Shown in pieces: positions 32,199 to 37,310 of a DNA stretch of 64,000 nt (its first letter is position 1; each line of letters starts with the position of its first letter). Source of the DNA: Planctomycetota bacterium (GTDB lineage: Bacteria > Planctomycetota > SZUA-567 > H5-PLA8); the NCBI GenBank assembly GCA_015075375.1, contig JABTUM010000002.1, positions 979,393-1,043,392 on the forward strand, in the 5' to 3' direction. Position numbers and translations under genes: made by a program. The notes under the pieces were generated by a model. The model was not told the origin of the DNA, did not search any database, and was given only the letters and a program-made list of their open reading frames with translations.

Positions 32199-32690
32199 TT
32201 ACTTTTTCTGATCTTCCGCGCTGTAGACCCACGGCCGGATCGCAGAACCGCTTCCCTGGCCGGGGCTTACAAGCTCTTCGGACTTGAACCACAATTCCAG
32301 TTCGCGCGCCGCCGACTCGAGGCTGTCGCTGGCGTGGATGAGGTTATTCTGCATCGAGAGCGCGTAATCGCCGCGGATCGTCCCGCCGGGGGCTTTGAGG
32401 CCTGAGGTCGGACCCACGAGGCCGCGCACAACTTCAATCACGCCTTGACCTTCCAGCGCCAGGACGACGACGGGCCCACCGGTGATGAAGCTGACCAGAC
32501 TCCCGAAAAACGGCTTCTCTTTGTGCTCGGCGTAATGCTGCTTGGCCGTGGCCTCGTTGACGCGCATGAGCTTTAACCCTACTACGCTCATACCTTTGCG
32601 TTCGAACCGCGCGAGGATCTCGCCGGCCAGTCCGCGTGCGACGCCGTCGGGCTTGACGATCACCAGAGTCCGTTCGTGCAACTTGCTCAC
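32199..32690 (-). CDS. ndk: Nucleoside-diphosphate kinase
   Basis: 163 residues. It transfers the terminal phosphate between nucleoside tri- and diphosphates. Motifs: ERTLVIVKPDGVARG, GLKLMRV, FGSLVSFITGGPVVVLALEG, and the active-site His in NNLIHASDS. The start is GTG at 32690, fixed by an AAGGAG seven bases upstream; the longer frames from 32708 or beyond lack such a signal. The C-terminus is about 15 residues longer than usual. Reading from 32876 on this strand is not supported. Confidence 0.95.
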   Translation of the reverse strand: MSKLHERTLVIVKPDGVARGLAGEILARFERKGMSVVGLKLMRVNEATAKQHYAEHKEKPFFGSLVSFITGGPVVVLALEGQGVIEVVRGLVGPTSGLKAPGGTIRGDYALSMQNNLIHASDSLESAARELELWFKSEELVSPGQGSGSAIRPWVYSAEDQKK

Positions 32691-33308
32691 CGCATAACTC
32701 CTTGCCATGCAAGGGCCTGCCGAACCGCTGCCGAGAGGGCTCCGGCGGCCTACCAATGGGACGCTTGAGAAACTCCGTTTGCTCAAGGTGCGCGCTATTT
32801 TGTAGGTCGTGGCGGGTGGAAAGTCAAGTCCCCGGCGGCGGGAATGGGGCGTGTGCACCGGTGGGTTTTTGCGCAATCGATGAGCCTGGCTTTACGAGGA
32901 ATAAGGACTTACAAGGAGGTGTCGCGTGTCTAGACGTGGAGGCGCACGTCGAGCAAAAATTCGATCTTGCCATAAAACTGCTATAAATCGCTGCTGCAAA
33001 GCGTATTTTTGCACGGACGTGCTTAGTGTCCGGCGCGCTATGCCCGAGGGGCTGAACGGGTGCATGGGGTTTTGAGGCCGAAAAAGGGCGGCTTTCCGTG
33101 GCCTTTGGCGCTCGGCGCGGGCGGAGCGGCGCACGCGGTTTCACCTGTGCGTAAGTTAGTGCGGTTCTTTCGTGTTTTGCGATTCCGTTGGCGGGGCGGA
33201 TGCCTACAATGCGTGCGACTCGGGACCATGGTGGAAAGCGAAGGAAGGCGGAAGCCGGAAGCACGTACGGCTGTTGATGTACGCCTTAAGGCCTAGCGGG
33301 CCGACAGA

Positions 33309-33380
33309 GTATAGCCCCCGGGCGTGCGCCCGGGGTGGCGGGAGATGGGGCGTGGAGCCCCGGAGGGGCGGAAGAGCGTG
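33309..33380. repeat. REP-like two-hairpin element
   Basis: Hairpin one CCCCGGGCGTGCGCCCGGGG (33316-33335) and hairpin two GCCCCGGAGGGGC (33357-33369) are separated by 21 bases, followed by GGAAGAGCG. Two-stem GC-rich elements of this kind (REP/BIME type, often moved by REP-associated tyrosine transposases) are common in such genomes. No transposase gene is in the window. Confidence 0.6.
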
Positions 33381-33415
33381 CCGCGGCCGATGAAGAGCCT
33401 CGTGTGTCTGGGGCA

Positions 33416-33460: not shown

Positions 33461-34414
33461 ATGGGGGAGCAAATGATTCAGCCGAGGCTAGGTGAAGACT
33501 TCCCCGAAGTCCCTAAAGATGTGCTGAAGTGGATAATAAAAGTATTCAGAATTTGTAATCGTCGCGCATCATTTAAAATGACCAAAATCCCAACTTCGCA
33601 AGAACACTCTCTAGATATGACTATTGTCGACGAGGTGTCACATTTTTCCGCACCCTTTATACTTCCGTCTAAGTGGACTGTTAGAATCGAAACCCACTTT
33701 TTAGGCGGCATGAAGCACTTTAATGGTTGGGAAATTGCCGATATAGGATTACTAGCGACGTTTAGGAAAGGGGGGCGTCTGATTAAGACAAAAGTTGCTC
33801 TTCTTCAATCTAAGAGACTTTATCCCGAGGAACAAACATACGAAGAGGCGACTAAAATTGATTATATGACTGGGTTTGGGAGCCTTCTGGAAAAGGACGC
33901 CATTGCAATGCATTTAGCACAACCACGCAACTTTGGCTTTACGAATAAGTCCAAATATAGCGCACTTAAGGTCAACGATGATCAGTACTTAGCGATAGAT
34001 AGATATGAGGATGAAACTAAAATTCCCGTTTACTACCTCCTTTATAATCCTTATGAAGTTCCTTGGTCAATAGAATTGCCATTACCCAGTGGATTAAAAA
34101 TCAAGGCTCACGCTAAAGAAACCTGTAAGGTGTTACCTGCTAAAATAGTAAGGGCAGCACTTTCGGGAAAAGCAACGAATTATACTCCATTATTTTCTGA
34201 TCTTTGTCATCAATCGCCAATGCCGGGTAAGAAGAGGTGGCCAGGCGGTTGGAAGCTGGAAGAGTTTGTTGGAAAGCAATTTATCCCCTGCAAGCAAGGT
34301 TACAAGTCATTTGAGGCCCGCACTGATGAAAGCATTTATAACGTGTTTAACAGAAGGAGCGGACCGATTGCCTCAGCTATTTCAATAAATATTGAAGCCC
34401 CTATTACATCCTAG
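33461..34414 (+). CDS. Predicted PD-(D/E)XK-like nuclease of an AT-rich cassette (gene A)
   Basis: 317 residues, unlike its neighbours in base and codon use (many AAA, ATT, TTA codons). I do not recognise a named family. Residues 77-118 have an E-(n)-D-(n)-QxK arrangement: E77, then WEIADIG with D94, a beta-turn-rich FRKGGRLIKTK, then ALLQSKRLY with Q116 and K118. This resembles Mrr-type restriction nucleases, where a D is followed some 20 residues later by QxKR. The nuclease call is inference. The C-terminal half is mixed and ends without membrane segments. The start may be ATG 33461 or 33473. Confidence 0.7.
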   Translation: MGEQMIQPRLGEDFPEVPKDVLKWIIKVFRICNRRASFKMTKIPTSQEHSLDMTIVDEVSHFSAPFILPSKWTVRIETHFLGGMKHFNGWEIADIGLLATFRKGGRLIKTKVALLQSKRLYPEEQTYEEATKIDYMTGFGSLLEKDAIAMHLAQPRNFGFTNKSKYSALKVNDDQYLAIDRYEDETKIPVYYLLYNPYEVPWSIELPLPSGLKIKAHAKETCKVLPAKIVRAALSGKATNYTPLFSDLCHQSPMPGKKRWPGGWKLEEFVGKQFIPCKQGYKSFEARTDESIYNVFNRRSGPIASAISINIEAPITS

Positions 34415-34427
34415 TTACGCAAATCGT

Positions 34428-34449
34428 AAATTTTGTTGTACTAAAATTT
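34428..34449. repeat. AT-rich inverted repeat between cassette genes A and B
   Basis: AAATTTT (34428-34434) and AAAATTT (34443-34449) can form a seven-base-pair stem in the 90-base gap. It might be a weak terminator or regulator binding site controlling the relative output of genes A and B. Confidence 0.5.
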
Positions 34450-34503
34450 GCCGATAAGTGCACTACAGTGATTGCCGTTAGGTGAGTGGAGGACAAAGCG
34501 CAC

Positions 34504-35670
34504 GTGAATGCCGAGAGATTGCAAGAAGCCACATTGCTGGTTCTTAATGAGTACACCTCTACAAAACTCTTGGATTTGATGTCTCAATTAGAAACAACGT
34601 TAACGCAGTCCGTTACCGCATCAAACCCAGATACCAATAAAGCATTTAGGCTGAAATACGAAGAGGTGCTAAATGTTCTAAATAAATGTAAGTCTAATTT
34701 TGTCCGGCCAACCCAAAAAAGCATATTAGGTGAAATGAAGGCCTTATCACGAATTGGCATAGGACTCTCTTCTAGGATTCAAGAGATAATTTCAGAAAAT
34801 AGCGCAACTCAGGCAGATCTTTTGGATCAATTCAAGAAGCTTCGCGCAGAAATTGTTGAGTTTTCTAAAACGCTGACGAGTCTTAAGGAAAACATGGCAA
34901 AAGTTGGTGTGTCTATCAGCTTGTTGGAAAAGGGGACGTTTGAAGTTGGAATAATCTTTCCCCCAAGTGACAACCGTCGTGGGGTTGGAGATTTTAAGGA
35001 ACATGTTTCTAATATAGAGTTCATTATTCTAACTTTTCAAGAGATGTCTGGAATGTCCCTAGCTAGTGCAACTATTCGACGTATCAGCTCTTCGGACTGG
35101 GAAGTATTTGTTGCATGTAGCGGTCCAGCTGCCGCCGGAATTGCATTTGCCCTCGAGCGAATAGTTTCCATGTATAAGACTTACCTTGAGATTAAACTTC
35201 TTAAGAAGCAGCTGGCGGAGAAGGAAGTTCCTGAATCGGTGCTGAAGGGTCTAGCAGACCACCTTGACAGCAAAATTGGAGCTGACGTTGATTCTATTTC
35301 TAAAATTATTATAGATAAATATTGCTCTATAAAAGATTCTGGGAGAAAAAGTGAGCTGCACAATAAGTTGAGAATAGCCTTAACAAAGCTTATCAAAATG
35401 GTGGATATGGCAGCAATTATTGATGTAGTTGGGAATCCTCCGGACAAACCAAGTGCTCCAGAAGGAGGTGCGCAAGACACTCCCGAGCAGAGGCAGCTCA
35501 GTGAGCAGTATACACAAACTTTAGAGTTACTAGAGGTAGTTGAAAAGCATGGTCACGTTATATCTGATTTAGGAGAGAGAAGTAAAGCGCAATTAGAGCT
35601 TCCCGATCCTGATTGTGCTCCCAATGCTCCAACTGAAACACCCGCCGATACCAACCCAAACCCTCCTTGA
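34504..35670 (+). CDS. Coiled-coil protein of the AT-rich cassette (gene B)
   Basis: 388 residues from GTG 34504, chosen for a GGAGG ten bases upstream (GTG 34486 is possible). Residues about 1-140 are helical and coiled-coil-like. A beta-rich stretch (KGTFEVGIIFPPSDN, EVFVACSGPAAA) is followed by GIAFALERIVSMYKTYLEIKLLKKQL, an amphipathic to hydrophobic helix leading into another charged helix. The C-terminus is Pro/Glu-rich and likely disordered. A similar pattern of a short hydrophobic core helix and a long basic helix occurs in uncharacterised proteins I cannot name. The stop overlaps the start of gene C (TTGA), so the two are translationally coupled. Confidence 0.7.
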   Translation: MNAERLQEATLLVLNEYTSTKLLDLMSQLETTLTQSVTASNPDTNKAFRLKYEEVLNVLNKCKSNFVRPTQKSILGEMKALSRIGIGLSSRIQEIISENSATQADLLDQFKKLRAEIVEFSKTLTSLKENMAKVGVSISLLEKGTFEVGIIFPPSDNRRGVGDFKEHVSNIEFIILTFQEMSGMSLASATIRRISSSDWEVFVACSGPAAAGIAFALERIVSMYKTYLEIKLLKKQLAEKEVPESVLKGLADHLDSKIGADVDSISKIIIDKYCSIKDSGRKSELHNKLRIALTKLIKMVDMAAIIDVVGNPPDKPSAPEGGAQDTPEQRQLSEQYTQTLELLEVVEKHGHVISDLGERSKAQLELPDPDCAPNAPTETPADTNPNPP

Positions 35671-36878
35671 TCGAGGGAAGGGAGACTGAGGGTGGGTGGC
35701 GCAGCGTGCCGCGATATCCAGAGGGATTAGACCTATCCGGAGTTTTTGATGTGCTTAAAGACACCTTACTAATAAAGAATAATGGACCTTCAGGTGGTCC
35801 ATTCCCGTCCTTTATTGTTGATCCATCAAACGCAGACCCCCATTGGGTTGACTGTATTGTAAAGATATTACAGCAGATTGATTTCGAAGACCGAAGGTAT
35901 TTTGATGAATCGACTTCAACATTCTTTAGACTTGGTGCGATTAATAGTTTCGAATGGGTTATAGCAAATCTTGATTTTTCTCATGGTGATGACCCAAAAT
36001 TGTCACTTTTTAAGATACACTTGCGAACCGTCTTGGGCAATGCAATCTTTGCAATGATTGGGTCAAGTAGGTGGAGCAAGTTGTTTCCTAAAGGTAAACA
36101 GTCTGGCAATCCATTGCCGATACACGATATTGACTTCTTGCTAAGGGAACGAAGTATCAATGTAGTTCTTTCGTCTCTAAAGAGAGGAAAATATGGCGGG
36201 TATTGTTCAAGGCGTGATCTCAATATTCAGATTGACGGAAAGCCTAAGTATATTGCATTTAGCGAGCACGCCATAGAACGAACCTACCAGAGGATTATAG
36301 GAAGCATGGGGATATATGCTTCTTGGGGTGACGCGTTTGCCTTCTTTGACCGCTGTCGATACTTTGAGCCCGTTCTCTTACGCGATGGAGAGAATTCGCT
36401 TTCATTTTTTCAGGACTGTTTCCTTGAGCAACATGACCCCTCTATACTCATGTATCCAAACGAATATGCCCTTAGGATTTCTGGATTCGAAAGCCTTTGT
36501 TATCATATAGAATTTGGGATTCGTTCCTACTATCGAGTGGGATATGCCCCGATTGTAAGTAAAGGAGATTGGATACTTCTGAAAACCCTGCTTCCACCAG
36601 GCTATGCAGGTACACCTGAACTTGACCTATTTCAGAACGTTAAGATGGCGCCAAATAAACGAAGAAGACTTCTTAAGATGACCGATCACTGGACCGTTGA
36701 TCAACTTAACAAGAGCTTTGACTTTTCTCTCTTTAAATTCTTTCACCAAAATGGAATACCCCAGGTTGTTCAATTCACAGGAGATTTGTTTGCCCCGTTA
36801 GTAGGTTCAATCTCTACTCTAGAACAGCCCAAAAGGGTAGAGATTTGTAGTGTCCCCGCGGCCCCTGTACAACCCTGA
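35667..36878 (+). CDS. Unknown protein with HAIER motif of the AT-rich cassette (gene C)
   Basis: 403 residues. The TTG at 35667 overlaps the gene B stop; GTG 35706 is an alternative. I recognise no family. The middle contains AFSEHAIERTYQR, which recalls the HALERM-ERGI signature of small DUF4258/BrnT-like RNase-fold proteins, followed by a beta hairpin with SLSFF. The rest is mixed alpha/beta with many aromatic residues and no membrane segment. Codon use is AT-rich as in genes A and B, and very different from the chromosome. A toxin- or effector-like role is only a guess. No paired antitoxin is evident. Confidence 0.65.
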   Translation: MIEGRETEGGWRSVPRYPEGLDLSGVFDVLKDTLLIKNNGPSGGPFPSFIVDPSNADPHWVDCIVKILQQIDFEDRRYFDESTSTFFRLGAINSFEWVIANLDFSHGDDPKLSLFKIHLRTVLGNAIFAMIGSSRWSKLFPKGKQSGNPLPIHDIDFLLRERSINVVLSSLKRGKYGGYCSRRDLNIQIDGKPKYIAFSEHAIERTYQRIIGSMGIYASWGDAFAFFDRCRYFEPVLLRDGENSLSFFQDCFLEQHDPSILMYPNEYALRISGFESLCYHIEFGIRSYYRVGYAPIVSKGDWILLKTLLPPGYAGTPELDLFQNVKMAPNKRRRLLKMTDHWTVDQLNKSFDFSLFKFFHQNGIPQVVQFTGDLFAPLVGSISTLEQPKRVEICSVPAAPVQP

Positions 36879-36953
36879 AGTTTATTGCGCGCGCGATTCC
36901 CACGGCTGGGTTCCATGCTTCTTGAGGAAGGCGGCTTGGGGCCGTGGAGGACC

Positions 36954-37086
36954 TCCGCCTTCGCTGCGCTTCCGCCTTCGCTGCGCTTCCGCCTTCGCTG
37001 CGCTTCCGCCTTCGCTGCGCTATGGCGCGACAAGATGGCGCGACAAGATGGCGCGACAAGACGGCGCGACAAAACGGCGCGACGAG
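36954..37086. repeat. Tandem repeats: four 17-base units then five 13-base units
   Basis: TCCGCCTTCGCTGCGCT is repeated four times exactly (36954-37021). It is followed without a gap by ATGGCGCGACAAG three times and two variants (ACGGCGCGACAAA, then a partial one) to 37086. There are no spacers, so it is not CRISPR. The same two units, two copies each, recur at 39070-39137. Confidence 0.95.
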
Positions 37087-37310
37087 CCGGTCTTTTGATT
37101 CGCGCGGGGCGGGGGCGATTTGCGTACGGCTCCATGCCGCCCTTGCCGGGCTCCCGAGCGAGTGCGGCTGCTTTCCAGGGGCTCGCGCCTCGGGCTGTTG
37201 GACGACGCTCCTGCGGGGCGAGGACGCGAGCGGACCGTGCGGCGGGCGCGCGGCGCTCCAGGCGCTCGGCTCTGTCGTCCCTTCGGGACTCACACCTGAC
37301 CTCACCGTCC

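Follow-up and report, generated by a model that had tools for sequence, protein, structure and literature searches.

The Mrr-type type IV enzymes (Mrr_cat) have a PD-QxK site (PMC12707154), and the same D ... QxK pattern, in an AD-x-G ... LQ(S/A)KR segment, is found in the product of gene A, the first of three genes on an AT-rich island in a Planctomycetota genome. The window is the 64-kb stretch of DNA around this island that was analyzed. Like the Mrr genes, A is a stand-alone gene with no methyltransferase, and its relatives are found in defense neighborhoods. Unlike Mrr, A has no match to the Mrr profile, no recognized N-terminal winged helix, and its own C-terminal part, which is long and conserved. 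Comparison with an Mrr in hhalign aligned the AD-x-G ... LQ(S/A)KR segment with an E-value of 0.16 and a probability of 0.4%, which is not significant. Since the Mrr profile is not matched, A is not filed as an Mrr.

The archaeal Hjc resolvases match the nuclease core of A repeatedly in Foldseek searches against the PDB, but weakly (E-values of 0.85 and above, probability at most 0.35, TM-score to the target about 0.45). Hjc is about 125 aa long compared with 317 aa for A, and there is no sequence match. A viral Holliday junction resolvase is among the similarly weak matches in BFVD. The top match in the PDB is a SPARDA chain, also weak (E 0.17, probability 0.10), and in eight loci, all of one sub-group, relatives of A are neighbors of a SIR2-APAZ gene and a short Argonaute gene. 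A differs from SPARSA and SPARDA in that most of its relatives, and the window itself, are without an Argonaute, and no APAZ domain is recognized in A. The linkage is thus not constant, and A is not an obligatory part of SPARSA.

The product of gene C has a HAxxR-type helix motif followed by conserved strands, as read from the sequence. This recalls the RNase toxins of the BECR/DUF4258 type, a likeness that we take to be a lead only. In contrast to these toxins, C is longer, and a Pfam search with seven members of its family gave no match.

An AT-rich island of foreign composition

The island (33461-36878) is sharply bounded and carries three intact ORFs, all on the plus strand (Table 1). Its GC content is 0.42 compared with 0.66 outside it in the window, and GC steps from 0.58 to 0.39 near 33,500 and from 0.37 to 0.68 near 36,900. 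In the rest of the 64 kb, segments of 1 kb have a mean GC of 0.657 (sd 0.032) and a minimum of 0.556. The genes have a GC of 0.419 (A), 0.423 (B) and 0.430 (C). The AT-ending codons in a GC-rich chromosome, on which the original prediction was built, are evident from a GC3 of 0.40, 0.38 and 0.39 for A, B and C versus 0.71-0.90 in ten neighboring genes, and codon adaptation to the local genes also sets the island apart (0.21-0.23 versus 0.58-0.82 for the neighbors). This composition departs from local variation far beyond chance. The stretch is a real island that was acquired horizontally, as had been proposed, and the A family shows the same foreign character elsewhere, being GC-poorer than its surroundings in 57 of 60 loci (mean difference -0.065). 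The common strand and composition of A, B and C suggest a stretch of common origin. Each of the three genes is present once in the host genome.

The left block, through the nucleoside diphosphate kinase gene (32,199-32,690), and the right block, from 37,966, are both conserved in two relatives. Since the two blocks lie on different contigs there, the island sits at a gene-order break, and no empty site is demonstrable. Rfam and tRNA scans near the island gave no RNA and no tRNA. Promoter and terminator counts were not above those of shuffled sequence and do not define the transcription units. No known defense gene was recognized beside the island within the 64 kb.

The repeats that had been pointed out as signs of a variable locus, a palindrome, a REP-like stretch and a repeat array, are all real at the island flanks. 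As ends of the island they were rejected, because the left element and the right array are dispersed in the host genome; an exact 34-mer of the 17-bp array is found again at two other sites. Between 37,300 and 37,810 there are also several copies of intergenic GC-rich repeats, about 57-76 nt long and with palindromic cores (CGCGCCCCGCCGGGGCGCG).

Table 1. Coordinates of the island genes and flanking repeats in the window
Feature	Position	Strand	Remarks
Gene A, probable stand-alone PD-(D/E)XK nuclease, E48 ... D94 ... Q116xK118	33461..34414	+	317 aa
Gene B, orphan family, three known members	34486..35670	+	394 aa; 388 aa from GTG 34504
Gene C, unnamed family	35667..36878	+	403 aa; start TTG 35667 overlaps B stop; GTG 35706 is an alternative
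REP-like element, dispersed	33300..33400		Left of island; three further genome copies, 76-80% identity
Tandem arrays, 17-bp unit x4 and 13-bp unit x4.8	36954..37090		Right of island

The three genes are not a conserved system

Gene A may start at ATG 33473, which lies directly behind GGGGGAG and would give a product of 313 aa. For gene B, GTG 34504 is a more likely start than GTG 34486, because both relatives of B begin with a homologous MNxE(K/R)L. The gap between A and B, given as 90 bases in the original prediction, is 89 nt from GTG 34504 and would be 71 nt from GTG 34486. The ORFs are otherwise present as described, including the four-base overlap (TTGA) of B and C. Given this overlap, B and C may be made together.

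The single strand, the like composition, the 89-nt gap and the 4-nt overlap would fit one undescribed defense system, with A as its nuclease effector, B acting as scaffold or sensor, and C as a further enzyme. Such a system would be recognized by co-occurrence of its genes in other genomes, and the search for the trio did not find it. B and C were sought in the ORFs of 77 loci, which include those of the A relatives, and neither lies beside any relative of A. Where relatives of B or C do occur, A is missing, and so is the other of the two. A-B-C is therefore not a conserved three-gene system, the cassette is unsupported as an evolutionary unit, and a single system made of all three is very unlikely. 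The original prediction that the three genes act together is not supported. Tight spacing and like composition are insufficient for a cassette, and this trio dissolves on comparison. B-C may be a separate two-gene unit, or B and C may be independent genes.

Gene A encodes a probable PD-(D/E)XK nuclease

A, B and C have no match of weight in Pfam, NCBIfam, PADLOC or PHROGs, in agreement with the first impression that none belongs to a known family. In 37 aligned sequences of the A family, residues E48, D94, K111, Q116 and K118 are invariant, within WExADIG ... KVALLQSKRLYP.

The PD-(D/E)XK core has the order alpha-beta-beta-beta-alpha-beta. The AlphaFold2 model of A, made with 34 sequences, has a pLDDT of 87.4 and a pTM of 0.86. 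Its helix 48-60, strands 73-80, 93-103 and 106-119, helix 174-186 and strand 190-195 follow in an order that fits this core. E48 opens a helix, and D94 and Q116xK118 lie on the adjacent strands 93-103 and 106-119, as in a PD-(D/E)XK motif. By residue numbering, D94 is opposite Q116-K118 across the hairpin. The nuclease-like core seen originally is supported by the invariant residues and the model, and weakly by Foldseek, where all E-values are above 0.1. No profile ties A to a known nuclease, and a PDB sequence search with profiles of A and C gave nothing meaningful. The model and the conserved residues make A a probable PD-(D/E)XK nuclease whose signature resembles that of Mrr.

Distribution and mobility of the A family

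A profile scan found 54 relatives of A in GTDB genomes, from Planctomycetota, Actinomycetota, Pseudomonadota, Verrucomicrobiota, Acidobacteriota and other phyla, as named in the titles of their records. There are five matches in the plasmid search and three in IMG/VR viral contigs, and none in 50,697 phage records. The family is unnamed, and it is widespread but sparse. In the host's own phylum A is found in three of 246 sampled genomes, and B and C each in three of 392, host included, so these are not housekeeping genes. One genome of the same family as the host (G094) carries a relative of A.

In six alphaproteobacterial genomes, each of a different genus (Sphingomonas, Erythrobacter, Sphingobium, Prosthecomicrobium, Pacificimonas and Enterovirga), A lies next to the left end of a shared stretch (99.98-99.99% identity over at least 9.17 kb), and the DNA to the left of this stretch differs between the genomes. 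Behind A come a gene for a 204-aa protein and then the two SPARSA genes, SIR2-APAZ and short Argonaute, in that order, with DNA similar to chromate-resistance genes after them. Homologues of the two SPARSA genes in another locus, L052, have PADLOC E-values of 4e-176 and 2e-195. The stretch has the look of a recent mobile element. Its right end is not reached in the DNA examined, within which no terminal inverted repeats were found.

In these six loci (L056-L061, e.g. L058:7774-16942) the stretch begins with TGG(C/T)GCCCCGCCCTGGATAAACATAACG. In one sub-group, 11 loci (L058:8958-9572 and ten others) encode the 204-aa protein directly behind A. It belongs to no PADLOC family, and may be a partner of A in that sub-group.

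In the IMG/VR contigs L075, L076 and L077 the relative of A is no more than about 3 kb from the right end, where cargo at the edge of a prophage would be expected to sit.

A different reading is that the nuclease works for mobile elements, in their recombination, in resolution or when elements compete, and not in defense of the host. The weak structural matches to Holliday junction resolvases would agree with this, as would the terminal position of A relatives in a mobile stretch and their nearness to the ends of three viral contigs, and an integrase-like gene adjoins A in two loci (L026 and L076). A role of this kind nevertheless appears unlikely, given the absence of A from the phage records and the lack of any consistent association with recombination genes; the association that does repeat is with diverse defense systems.

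Defense genes around relatives of gene A

Defense genes are enriched in the neighborhoods of A relatives compared with a control that is not taxon-matched to the A loci, being drawn from the host lineage and its relatives. Neighbors were taken as the ORFs within two of A, with a PADLOC cut-off of E up to 1e-20. Among the PADLOC matches of the 109 neighbors are Argonautes, Mokosh, AbiEii, PglX/type IIG, Uzume, Lamassu, DISARM DrmC, MADS, and type I and II restriction-modification genes. The 95 control ORFs match mainly protein-kinase-type models, with two members each, among the matches listed (25 of 31 families). The counts are by family and not by matching member, and no exact percentage is given.

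Gabija genes lie near A in Rhizobium CB3060 (GajA, E 2e-186; GajB, E 3e-145), and two Bradyrhizobium loci have pairs similar to Gabija near A. Several relatives of A, such as L007 and L062, are among metabolic genes.

Genes B and C

Gene B has a full-length relative of 379 aa in genome G386, which aligns pairwise with B at 22% identity (E 2e-15). The other relative, in the sister genome G156 (L020:8231-9408), is split over three frames and has a GC of 0.44 in a locus of 0.69, and is either a decayed gene or the product of assembly errors. Both are without A or C. Neither B nor C was found in the plasmid, phage and viral-contig searches.

The split relative of B, together with some split relatives of A (L047, L050 and L065), would be in keeping with an island that has decayed or is carried along as inert cargo, and that does nothing at present. 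Sequencing errors in metagenome-assembled genomes could also explain these splits. In the window the ORFs are intact and the residues conserved in the families are kept, which makes inert cargo a most improbable reading.

Gene C has six relatives, within one family of the phylum, and all are without A or B. The HAIER motif noted in C at the outset is real, and the motifs of the family are HA(I/L)xxxxxR, GYxP and TxLxPGxxxTPE. Common to the seven members are H201-A202, R209, D222, G292-Y293-x-P295, T307-x-L309-x-P311-G312, T316-P317-E318, H360 and Q366. A single-sequence fold model of C had a pLDDT of 30 and was discarded.

One relative of C, in genome G444, lies between GajA and GajB (E 2e-171 and 1e-134) and a SIR2-HerA pair (E 5e-121 and 2e-231). 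Another, in G510, has an Mrr gene (E 7e-88) about 1.1 kb away, and further neighbors of C relatives match reverse-transcriptase and candidate PDC models. The neighborhood is suggestive of defense, and C is probably a second defense-type effector.

In the G444 locus (L089, G444:C10:141000-157000), a Gabija pair, a McrB-like start, the C relative, a GIY-YIG-like gene and the SIR2-HerA pair are packed within 12 kb as a dense defense island.

Proposed function

The defense-type module of the original prediction stands in part, through the neighborhoods of A relatives and of at least one C relative, and falls as a single conserved cassette. It is fairly likely that the locus is a small horizontally acquired defense-type island on which three separately mobile families are gathered, with A most likely a stand-alone PD-(D/E)XK DNA endonuclease. 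A would cut invading DNA by itself. Its predicted active site would be in the N-terminal half, with E48 at a helix start, D94 at a strand start, and Q116xK118 at the end of the next strand. The C-terminal part, with the conserved C277, G280 and RSGPI, is a candidate sensor of incoming DNA. Restriction by A may be modification- or structure-dependent, as in type IV systems. With no methyltransferase beside A in the window, or consistently elsewhere, methylation is unlikely to protect the host from its own enzyme; the simplest and likeliest mode is that A recognizes modified or unusual DNA. We infer the nuclease activity, the type IV mode and the defense function of A. A rather doubtful variant is that two unnamed defense families meet here, the PD-QxK family of A and a Planctomycetota effector family of unrecognized fold represented by C, each of which would protect alone against phages or plasmids.

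The A family is found beside many antiviral systems, yet it has been overlooked by Pfam, NCBIfam, PHROGs and PADLOC, which makes it a concrete candidate. The predicted active-site residues of A would permit a single-gene test.
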